A stretch of DNA of 64,000 nucleotides, taken from assembly GCF_000214355.1 (NCBI RefSeq), contig NC_015577.1, positions 3,153,389-3,217,388 on the forward strand, written 5' to 3'. Position 1 is the stretch's first letter, and every line of letters starts with the position of its first letter. Of the stretch, positions 49,399 through 52,353 are shown one piece after another. The notes below the pieces were generated by a model. It saw only the letters and a program-made list of their open reading frames with translations, made no database searches and was not told the origin of the DNA. A program made the position numbers and the translations under genes. The stretch is from Leadbettera azotonutricia ZAS-9. Its GTDB lineage: Bacteria; Spirochaetota; Spirochaetia; Treponematales; Breznakiellaceae.

Positions 49399-49754
49399 GT
49401 GTCGGTGAATACAATTTAATATGGGGAGCCTATAATAATTATGTTACTATGACTGATATCGAAAATACTATTGCCAATCAAAATTGGCCTGTTACATCAG
49501 CCAATGATGGTAAATATGCAATAGGCGACACTGCACGATCAATTCGTACCTACTGTGTAGGATCTCAGTATTTCACTGATGGCGGAGCGGCAGACGGATC
49601 TTATGAAGACCTGCTGAATTATACATCAAATGGCATTGGATTGCCGTCAGATCTTAAAAATGCGATGGCTTCTCAAAAAGCCAGTGTACCAATAGCGGGG
49701 GTTTTTAAAAATCCACTAAACCTGGAGGTCATGTTCTATGTAAGCAAAAACTAA
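49329..49754 (+). CDS. Lipoprotein B with shared leader, different mature part
   Basis: A lipoprotein of 141 residues from the ATG at 49329 (149 if the ancestral codon at 49305, now ATC, is still used). The signal peptide GMSAALLALGLVLAGC and CDNGSTSS linker are the same as in lipoprotein A, but the mature part (YNLIWGAYNNYVTMTDIENTI and onward) is unrelated. It has charged, asparagine-rich repeats and ends with a hydrophobic LNLEVMFYVSKN strand. The ribosome-binding site is spaced for the lost start and is 24 nt too far for the new one, so expression may be weak. Its stop overlaps the convergent membrane-protein gene. Confidence 0.65.
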   Translation: MGMSAALLALGLVLAGCDNGSTSSVGEYNLIWGAYNNYVTMTDIENTIANQNWPVTSANDGKYAIGDTARSIRTYCVGSQYFTDGGAADGSYEDLLNYTSNGIGLPSDLKNAMASQKASVPIAGVFKNPLNLEVMFYVSKN

Positions 49755-50425
49755 AGGCCTCGGCCACCATCGGAATCTTCCCCTATCCTTCGGTACAGCA
49801 GTGAAATGCCGTAACCGCCGAATACGGCGATAAAGCGGTCAACGATATTGATGGGTATGCGGGAAAGGATCGCCGCCGCCGGTACAGGCACATTGTTCCT
49901 GATGAGGCCGAGTTTGAAGATGTCCTCGGGGTACAGGCCCCGGGGCGCCGAAACAAGTTTGAAGAGGGCAAAATCGATAATGCCGCCCATGATACTGATG
50001 AGTATGCAGTCAAGCGCCACCAGTACCATGAGCCTTGCGGCTGTGCTTATAAAGGAAGAAAGAGGAGCTTCTTTAGCAAAAAGCCTTTGCCGCATTTTTA
50101 ATTTGGTCCGGAAAAAGCAGACCAAAAGCATTTCCGTAACCGTGCACAGGACAAACGCGTTGCCTGCCCAGAATATGCTCTCTCCTGAGTGAAATAACAG
50201 ATTGCGCAAAATTTCGCAGAGTGGATAGAGCAGCACGCCAGTCAGCATACCGGGCAGGAGGCCAAAACTGAAGATTATGGCAACGGTAAAAACCGTATCC
50301 AGATATAATGGCGCGCCGAATATACCGCTTACCAGTATGCCGAGGGCAGCATTGCCAAGGGCCGATACCAGGCAAAGAACAAGCATTTTCCATCTGATTG
50401 ATAACTGCGGTTTACCATTCGCCAT
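49751..50425 (-). CDS. Multi-pass membrane protein, ECF S-component-like
   Basis: A 224-residue protein with five to six hydrophobic helices (about residues 13-35, 40-60, 62-80, 85-105, 130-155, 190-210). The N-terminal half (GAPLYLDTVFTVAIIFSFGLLPGMLTG) resembles vitamin/metal ECF S components or related integral sensors, but I cannot assign a substrate and no EcfA/EcfT gene is near. It diverges from the sensor kinase and their promoter regions overlap. Confidence 0.7.
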   Translation of the reverse strand: MANGKPQLSIRWKMLVLCLVSALGNAALGILVSGIFGAPLYLDTVFTVAIIFSFGLLPGMLTGVLLYPLCEILRNLLFHSGESIFWAGNAFVLCTVTEMLLVCFFRTKLKMRQRLFAKEAPLSSFISTAARLMVLVALDCILISIMGGIIDFALFKLVSAPRGLYPEDIFKLGLIRNNVPVPAAAILSRIPINIVDRFIAVFGGYGISLLYRRIGEDSDGGRGL

Positions 50426-50483
50426 TATTATATTACAATGAGTTTGTCCTGTTGCATTGTCAAGAGGGGAACCTTCGAGAGTT

Positions 50484-51698
50484 ATGGCACGTTATATACT
50501 GAAAATCATTGCACTATTTACCGCCTGTATGTTTGCTTCAGGCTGCAGCAGTAAAAGTGAATATCCGTCAGTCTCTTCCCTAGCACACGAGTGGCTCGAA
50601 ATTAAAACAATGCTCACGGCCCACGGAACCGGGCAAGGCCCTGAAAGCGAAGCTCTGGACAGTTTTACTTCTGCCCTGGACAAATTTTCCGCCTCCCCTG
50701 CGGGAAACCTCTATCTGATCAATCGTCCGGCCATTACGAAATCTGTGACCAGCATTGGCAAAACAGCGGAAAGGCTTAAGGCGGCGGCAGAGACGAGCGA
50801 CGAGAATGGGGTACGTTCAATTATGCTTGAAATCGACACCGCCGTTGACCAGCTTCAGATTATAGACACAGGGCTATCAGACACCATTCAGCTCAGGTAC
50901 TTCCAGCTTTTTTTCTTTTTTTCGCTGCTGGTGCTTTTAACGGTACTGGTTTTATGGCTATTGGACCGCAGACTCGAAAAGGCCATAAGCATGGGACAGC
51001 AGAGCCTTATTTTTTCCAGGGAAACGGTTCTCGCCCAGGAACAGGAGCGTTCCCGCATTGCCCGTGAACTCCACGATACGATTGCCCAGGATCTGTGGCG
51101 TCTTTCCTTCAGGGCCGACAGCATAAACAGGGCCGAACAGGCCGAAGAGCGCCGCCGTATCTGCGAAGAAGTAGTCAAAGGCCAGCAGGAGCTTATGCAG
51201 CGTATCAGGACAATCTGCGATACCCTGGTGCCGCCCGATTTCAGACGCAGGGGCCTGCCTGATGCTATCCGCAGTTTGTGTTATGATTTTTCCCGGCGTA
51301 CCGGCATTGAATGTGCCGTAACCGTGCAGGAAGGCTTAAACCTTGAACCCCTTAACGTGGATATGCAATTGCAGTGCTTCCGTATAGTGCAGGAATGTCT
51401 TGCCAATATTGAAAAACACGCAGAGGCGAGCGAGGCATCGGTACTGGTCAGTAACAGGGGAGAAGGTCAGGCCGAAACTCCGGCCATGGGGCTTCTGCAT
51501 ATATGCGTTTCCGATAACGGCAGGGGCTTTGATGCGCCGGACAGCGATACGCAGTTCCTACTCAGAGCCAAAGGCCACTTCGGCCTGTGGAACATGAATG
51601 CGCGGGCAGAGGCCCTGCGCGGAACGCTGACCATTGACAGCGAAACAGGCTGCGGCGTCCGGATTACCCTGGATCTGCCTCTGGAAACGGAAGTATGA
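50484..51698 (+). CDS. Membrane-bound NarL-family sensor histidine kinase
   Basis: A 404-residue kinase. The N-terminal signal MARYILKIIALFTACMFASGC has a lipobox-like end (Cys21); a periplasmic helical region (about 22-135) is followed by one transmembrane helix (about 142-162). The HisKA_3 phospho-acceptor is in RIARELHDTIAQDLW (His about 197), and the HATPase_c domain (about 290-400) contains NIEKHAEAS, VSDNGRGFD and GHFGLWNMNARAEALRG. It pairs with the LuxR-type regulator that follows. A TTG upstream (50457) is possible. The stop TGA overlaps an ATG (ATGA) that opens the poly-C leader frame. Confidence 0.92.
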   Translation: MARYILKIIALFTACMFASGCSSKSEYPSVSSLAHEWLEIKTMLTAHGTGQGPESEALDSFTSALDKFSASPAGNLYLINRPAITKSVTSIGKTAERLKAAAETSDENGVRSIMLEIDTAVDQLQIIDTGLSDTIQLRYFQLFFFFSLLVLLTVLVLWLLDRRLEKAISMGQQSLIFSRETVLAQEQERSRIARELHDTIAQDLWRLSFRADSINRAEQAEERRRICEEVVKGQQELMQRIRTICDTLVPPDFRRRGLPDAIRSLCYDFSRRTGIECAVTVQEGLNLEPLNVDMQLQCFRIVQECLANIEKHAEASEASVLVSNRGEGQAETPAMGLLHICVSDNGRGFDAPDSDTQFLLRAKGHFGLWNMNARAEALRGTLTIDSETGCGVRITLDLPLETEV

Positions 51699-51751
51699 TA
51701 CCCCCCCCCCCCCCCCCGTACAAGCAGACCCTGCAAAGGTTCCTCCCGTGA
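51695..51751 (+). CDS. Short leader frame MIPPPPPPYKQTLQRFLP containing the poly-C tract
   Basis: The ATG overlaps the kinase stop (ATGA). With 17 C residues the frame has 18 codons, six of them consecutive prolines, and ends in TGA at 51749-51751, which overlaps the GTG at 51748 that can start the response regulator (GTGA). If the tract had 15 or 18 C residues the frame would run directly into the response regulator. Translation is not proven. Confidence 0.5.
   Translation: MIPPPPPPYKQTLQRFLP
51701..51717. repeat. Homopolymeric C17 tract
   Basis: Seventeen consecutive C residues lie between the kinase stop and the response-regulator start. Such runs are prone to length change by slipped-strand mispairing; tracts of G/C of this kind switch genes in other bacteria, including Treponema pallidum. 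Nothing else this long occurs in the window. Confidence 0.97.
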
Positions 51752-52353
51752 TTACGGTAGTACTCATAGACGATCACCCACTTGCAGTCAACGGCATAGG
51801 CGAGTGGCTAAGATCCACCGGACGCTTTGCCATTGCCGGTACAGCGGGCAGCCTTGCCCAGGCTCAGGCCCTGTTTGAAAACCTTGAAATCCTGCCTTCT
51901 GTCGTCATTCTTGATATTGCCCTTGGACCTGAAGACGGCCTTGAGGTAATCCCCATGCTAAAAACAATAGCCAAAAAAAGAAAAACGGCCCTGCCCGGCA
52001 TCGTGGTGTGCTCCATGTTCGAGGACCCCTTCCTGATTCAAAATGCCCGCAATGCGGGGGCCGGGGCCTATGTCGCAAAATCGGCGGATATTAACGAAGT
52101 CACCAGCGCCATAGACGCAGTGCTTGCCGGCAATACCTACATCAGGGCCGAATACCAGCTGCCTGTGCAGAAGTGGGCGTCATCAGGGCTTTCCCGCCGG
52201 GAACGCGAAATCGTCGCCCTGATAAAACAGCGCTTAAACAACAAAGAGATAGCCGAAAAAATGTATATCAGCATACGAACTGTGGAAAACCATTTATCCC
52301 ATATTTATGTAAAAACCAATACCAATTCCCGAAACGAACTCTCGGAATTGTAG
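51748..52353 (+). CDS. LuxR/NarL-type response regulator
   Basis: A regulator of about 201 residues. The receiver domain begins VITVVLIDDHPLAVNG, the phospho-acceptor aspartate is in SVVILDIALG (about residue 55), and a lysine of the pocket in AYVAKSADINE. The C-terminal LuxR helix-turn-helix (about 148-200) reads LSRREREIVALIKQRLNNKEIAEKMY with SIRTVENHLSHIY. The GTG start is inferred from AAAGG 8 nt upstream and from the GTGA overlap with the leader frame. With 15 or 18 C residues, an N-terminal extension starting at 51695 would be fused in frame. Confidence 0.88.
   Translation: MITVVLIDDHPLAVNGIGEWLRSTGRFAIAGTAGSLAQAQALFENLEILPSVVILDIALGPEDGLEVIPMLKTIAKKRKTALPGIVVCSMFEDPFLIQNARNAGAGAYVAKSADINEVTSAIDAVLAGNTYIRAEYQLPVQKWASSGLSRREREIVALIKQRLNNKEIAEKMYISIRTVENHLSHIYVKTNTNSRNELSEL

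Follow-up and report, generated by a model that had tools for sequence, protein, structure and literature searches.

We identified a two-component system in the window, the 64-kb stretch of DNA analysed here from Leadbettera azotonutricia ZAS-9, a bacterium formerly placed in Treponema that we take to be a termite-gut isolate. A HisKA_3/HATPase_c sensor histidine kinase adjoins a response regulator with receiver and GerE domains (Table 1), the arrangement of NarL/LuxR-type two-component systems. Comparison with NCBIfam families placed both proteins near the NarX/NarL, UhpB/UhpA, LiaS and MctS/MctR types; as all similarities are well below the family cut-offs, neither has an exact NCBIfam family. 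Measured against the nearest ortholog (G196, 81% identity), the regulator has a dN/dS of 0.15 and the kinase one of 0.29; both values point to purifying selection, so that the two genes are maintained and the signaling pair is in use. The kinase N-terminus (window 50484-50560) carries a lipobox-like signal, MARYILKIIALFTACMFASGC, followed by one transmembrane helix, as if the protein were a lipid-anchored periplasmic sensor. In the nearest ortholog (L017:1283, reverse-complement coordinates; L044:2783), a C10 run lies in frame within the ATPase region of the kinase. The divergently transcribed membrane protein next to the kinase is probably a third component of the system, as a similar protein (L002:2114-2743, minus strand) overlaps a paralogous regulator in the same genome.

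Table 1. Features of the kinase/regulator locus in the window, and C/G tracts at homologous junctions in other genomes of the family.
Feature	Position or locus	Strand	Basis or detail
Divergent 224-aa membrane protein, weakly ECF-S-like	49751..50425	-	Weak ECF-S similarity
ORF of kinase	50457-51698	+	ORF list; stop TGA 51696-51698
Sensor histidine kinase, NarX/UhpB/LiaS-like	50484..51698	+	Pfam HisKA_3 and HATPase_c, E 1e-10 both
ATGA: kinase stop and ancestral regulator start	51695..51698	+	Junctions of relatives; alignment to the 81% ortholog
18-codon out-of-frame ORF of the 17-C allele, MIPPPPPPYKQTLQRFLP	51695..51751	+	Stop 51749-51751; frame computation
Extra ~53 nt (tract and ~30 nt) lacking in relatives	51699..51751	+	Alignment to L044; ends ambiguous (repeated TGAT)
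C17 homopolymer tract	51701-51717	+	Read from sequence, directly 3' of ATGATA
Response regulator, receiver and GerE/LuxR HTH	51748..52353	+	Pfam Response_reg 2e-14, GerE 2e-13
Junction tract	G030 (L015)		G13, three bases ahead of ATG
Junction tract	G188 (L034)		C13
Junction tract	G169 (L132)		C16
Junction tract	G205 (L143)		C21
Junction tract	G147 (L140)		C11
Junction tract	G019 (L153)		G12

A run of 17 C lies between the kinase stop and GTG 51748 of the regulator. Elsewhere in the window, C runs reach 7 bases at most, and under a first-order model 0.0002 C/G runs of at least 17 would be expected in 64 kb and 0.013 in the whole genome; the run is thus not a product of chance. The 3,855,671-bp genome contains only six C/G runs of at least 10 bases, with lengths of 13, 15, 16, 17, 17 and 45. 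We computed the reading frames from ATG 51695 for every tract length from 12 to 24 C. When the number of C is a multiple of three, the open frame of the regulator reads on from the tract, giving MI-P(n)-VQADPAKVPP-VITVVLIDDHP... (219 aa at 18 C). Lengths of n = 2 mod 3 give, at 17 C, MIPPPPPPYKQTLQRFLP*, an 18-aa product that ends on GTGA, and lengths of n = 1 mod 3 give an out-of-frame overrun product of 60 aa at 16 C. A sequence-only reading of this DNA had described the stop/ATG overlap (ATGA) ahead of the run, the 18-residue peptide whose TGA overlaps GTG 51748, an N-terminally extended regulator at 15 or 18 C, and a frame that passes the GTG out of the regulator frame at 16 or 19 C. The sequence and the frame computation bear out each of these points, as well as its claim that tract length leaves the kinase unaffected, since the kinase stop precedes the tract.

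The same reading took ATG 51695 as the start of a separate overlapping leader frame, a view that did not hold up because relatives start the regulator at this ATG. In G196 the kinase ends in GTATGA and the regulator (ATG AAC ACC GTA GCG CTT ATA GAC) overlaps the kinase stop; ATGA with the ATG as regulator start was found in L017 and at least eight other homologs (L018, L020, L023, L024, L135, L137, L138, L145). In these relatives, the receiver domain directly follows the ATG. Judged from the aligned junctions, ATG 51695 is the ancestral start of a NarL-type response regulator and not a separate leader start. The window carries an extra segment of ~53 nt behind this start, and an 18-C allele would bring the segment to 54 nt and restore the frame. 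As the regulator starts ancestrally at this ATG and the segment lacks one base to be divisible by three, we read the sequenced 17-C allele as a regulator allele that is out of frame, with GTG 51748 as a possible restart.

The sequence TGAT occurs at both ends of the extra segment, and its second copy carries a duplicate of the old stop, which accounts for the peptide ending exactly on GTGA. The GTGA restart may therefore be a by-product of the repeat. GTG 51748 is a possible secondary start: it overlaps the 17-C stop and is preceded by AAAGG at ~8 nt, so that the 17-C allele may still make the regulator, a point that weighs against a switch. A search allowing 3 mismatches found no second copy in the genome of the 30 nt 3' of the tract, and a mobile or repeated insert was rejected on this ground.

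We propose, with a probability of roughly 0.6, that the tract is a translational contingency (phase-variation) switch on the response regulator. Replication slippage is established behavior for C/G runs of such length, and from this and the length of the run we infer that the number of C changes. At multiples of three, the ancestral ATG would read into the receiver domain, and the regulator would carry a short, Pro-rich tail at its N-terminus. At 17 C, translation would give the 18-aa peptide, with the regulator either off or produced in smaller amounts through re-initiation at the GTG, and at 16 or 19 C the overrun would leave the regulator off. Cells of one clone would then differ in whether the signaling pair is complete, the kinase always being made. 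Tract length had been suggested to choose among three translational outcomes; the three-frame logic stands, but three designed states do not follow from it, and since ATG 51695 is the ancestral start, the simplest reading is ON (multiples of three) versus OFF or weak. The six consecutive Pro codons may slow ribosomes, although a designed stall finds no support here. By mechanism, the locus appears to belong among simple-sequence contingency loci in the features examined: the homopolymer is long enough for instability and exceeds chance, and it is sited downstream of the ancestral start, where its length alters the frame. Within the species, these statements refer to one genome sequence.

We searched 200 family genomes for homologs of the regulator, retrieved almost all of the homologous loci and read their junctions. 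In six further loci of the same spirochete family, a long C/G run precedes the regulator by no more than about 60 nt (Table 1). The recurrence of this kind of run at other kinase/regulator junctions supports an effect of tract length on translation of the regulator. At these six junctions the run lies at the 3' end of the kinase gene and its length sets the position of the kinase stop; the window is a variant with the run just behind that stop. The kinase stop falls on the regulator start, as in coupled genes, with C16 in L132 and C21 in L143, and past it with G13 in L015 and C11 in L140. Tract lengths taken from metagenome assemblies are unreliable. Frame computation predicts in-frame kinase-polyPro-regulator fusions at C13 in L140 and at C19 or C22 in L143.

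A pattern search recovered the C-tract junctions independently of the junction reading, and the reversed control pattern had no match. Beyond the family, the same C pattern gave no convincing case in ~217 genomes of the order. Matches to the G-tract pattern in G154, G002 and G178 and to the C-tract pattern in G079 and G038 were set aside as chance, judged from the matched sequences alone. Long C/G runs also lie 100-320 bp from homologous regulators (L033:1326-1343; L029:1182-1199 and 2128-2142), and in L032 a C19 run follows the regulator at a distance of about 300 bp; all of these fall outside the junction window of the enrichment test described below.

Runs of at least 12 were seen upstream of the regulator at five of 64 homologous loci. 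From per-genome counts of such runs and 65 homologs, the expectation for 60 nt upstream is 0.02 if runs are evenly spread, or 0.03-0.1 if 10-30% of them lie just before genes. The enrichment corresponds to a Poisson P of about 1e-7 or less, or 4e-5 with a 20-fold local density, for loci that are related and hence not fully independent. The set comprised homologous loci outside the genome of the window and its own copies, the window itself being left out because the test was framed after it had been seen. Of 58 tracts sampled, just a few were within 60 nt of a start. On the regulator tree, tract state changes at least six times by a quick method that does not distinguish gains from losses. The rows for the window, G030, G188 and G019 each adjoin a tract-less row, and within one clade one member has C and another G. 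These changes, together with the use of both bases within a clade, make repeated gain of junction tracts likely, although three tract rows of one paralogous clade may share an origin. Because relatives appear to have grown such runs independently at the same joint, an inherited on/off gamble at the regulator is likely.

Several other explanations were weighed against this switch. The insertion might simply be tolerated, with the regulator made constitutively from GTG 51748 by termination-reinitiation at GTGA after the peptide or the kinase, so that length matters little. Consistent with this, the GTG lies in the regulator frame and overlaps the stop reached at 17 C, it is preceded by AAAGG, the residues V-I-T-V-V-L-I-D match the M-I-x-V-x-L-I-D starts of relatives, and long C/G runs are freely made in most genomes of the family. 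However, junction tracts are far commoner than expected, and length would not be wholly silent, as ribosomes on 16- or 19-C alleles pass the GTG and 15- or 18-C alleles extend the regulator. We consider a tolerated insertion unlikely. An error of sequencing or assembly in the C run is extremely unlikely: a single sequence of the locus is available and the exact length of 17 could be off, yet the surrounding ~30 nt and the frame structure are also absent from relatives, and similar tracts occur in many independent assemblies. The insert is thus real whatever the exact number of C.

Ribosomal (or polymerase) slippage on a fixed allele would fit the 17-C regulator frame, which is -1 relative to the frame of the ATG; a -1 shift would yield some extended regulator, and the six consecutive Pro codons could pace ribosomes (EF-P). 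We regard this as improbable, since tract length, slip site and stimulatory structure are not conserved, relatives use C or G at varying places relative to the stop, and RNA folding shows no structure beyond that of shuffled sequences (z = -0.24). Control of regulator transcription by a promoter-type tract, as at the tpr genes of Treponema pallidum, is suggested by the other five tracts of this genome: four of them precede lipoprotein genes, and TATAAT-like boxes follow some of these tracts. Here, no -10-like box was found 8-32 nt downstream of the tract (best 3 of 6) and no promoter-like site between 51500 and the regulator, and the regulator gene overlaps the kinase gene and is probably co-transcribed with it. 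A promoter-type tract was rejected on the lack of these sites, and we hold it to be very improbable.

The sequence-only reading considered control of a two-component regulator by an internal proline leader unusual. C tracts that control two-component genes have precedents, namely bvgS of Bordetella pertussis, with C6/C7 frameshift phase variation (PMC1891110), and arsS of Helicobacter pylori, with a C15/C14 tract near the kinase 3' end that varies between single-colony isolates (PMC12838425); the placement at the regulator start differs from both. As in bvgS, a one-base change in a C tract of a two-component gene would remove one partner, and a global effect is expected, but the bvgS tract is short and inside the kinase coding sequence whereas that of the window is long, at the regulator start, and spares the kinase. 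The arsS tract is likewise a long C tract at a histidine-kinase 3' end and is closest to those of G169, G205, G147 and G188; it alters the kinase C-terminus, whereas the window tract lies behind the kinase stop and alters the regulator. Tracts within the kinase reading frame, as in bvgS and arsS, were found in L132, L143, L140, L015 and L153.

Passages of PMC8355987 citing Hendrixson 2006 and 2008 describe frame-shifting homopolymers that control a response regulator in flgR/flgS of Campylobacter jejuni; unlike the window tract, these are described there as short A/T tracts in coding regions, with mutations termed non-reversible. In Treponema pallidum, of a related spirochete order, poly-G promoter tracts at tprE/G/J, TP0126 and tprL (PMC7864442) also set expression by homopolymer length, and the tpr tracts resemble the lipoprotein-upstream tracts of the family. 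Those tracts are transcriptional, with G on the sense strand, whereas the window tract would act in translation, with C on the sense strand, and no promoter box was found for it, which sets it apart from the tpr promoter type. C-tract phase variation of two-component genes is thus known, and the locus is best read as a variant with a long tract behind the regulator start and the kinase spared.

Phase variation is most familiar from the surface molecules of pathogens. More tentatively, homopolymer switches may have arisen again and again at the kinase/regulator joint of termite-gut spirochetes, an evolutionary hot spot where length would select separate coupled proteins, an uncoupled regulator or an in-frame kinase-polyproline-regulator fusion. 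If so, cells of one clone would differ in signaling wiring and not in surface antigens alone. A mutualist lineage that repeatedly places such switches on its signaling pairs would be a case of a gut symbiont hedging its bets in sensing and regulation, and the cultured, harmless strain offers a test bed for a switch on a signaling pair.

C/G runs of at least 12 were found in 182 of the 200 genomes of the family, with up to 265 in one 2.5-Mb genome and often several within 50 bp, compared with 0-6 per genome in other families of the order (23 genomes). In the complete genomes G000 and G168, most long runs lie 70-190 bp upstream of lipoprotein-like genes, with C on the sense strand. This abundance, with most runs preceding lipoprotein genes in the two finished genomes, points to a broad phase-variable repertoire in the family. 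The literature searched makes no mention of the abundance and yielded no relevant paper on termite treponemes and their homopolymers; neither homopolymers nor phase variation come up in a Breznakiellaceae genome paper of 2026. The lipoprotein-upstream tracts resemble contingency loci that act in transcription or in a 5' leader. The window tract differs from them in type, as indicated by its position inside translated sequence and the lack of a -10 box or promoter-like site.

Sense-C tracts in the C12-C45 range lie ~70-190 bp before lipoprotein-like genes at L009, L010, L012 and L013 in the genome of the window and at L156, L157, L160, L164, L165, L167 and L168 in G168. Several lipoprotein-upstream tracts share the flank TTA-C(n)-GATAGGTTTACYAGGATATAAC; with C(n)-GATAGGTTTACYAGGATATAAC present in two genera, this flank resembles a dispersed cassette. 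Most tracts have A as the base preceding the run of C, frequently as part of TTA or CTA, above the expected one in three. Two single-contig genomes contain C/G runs of 45 (L012:1466-1510) and 61 bases (L109:1502-1562), the latter within the 3' part of a membrane-acyltransferase-like ORF.
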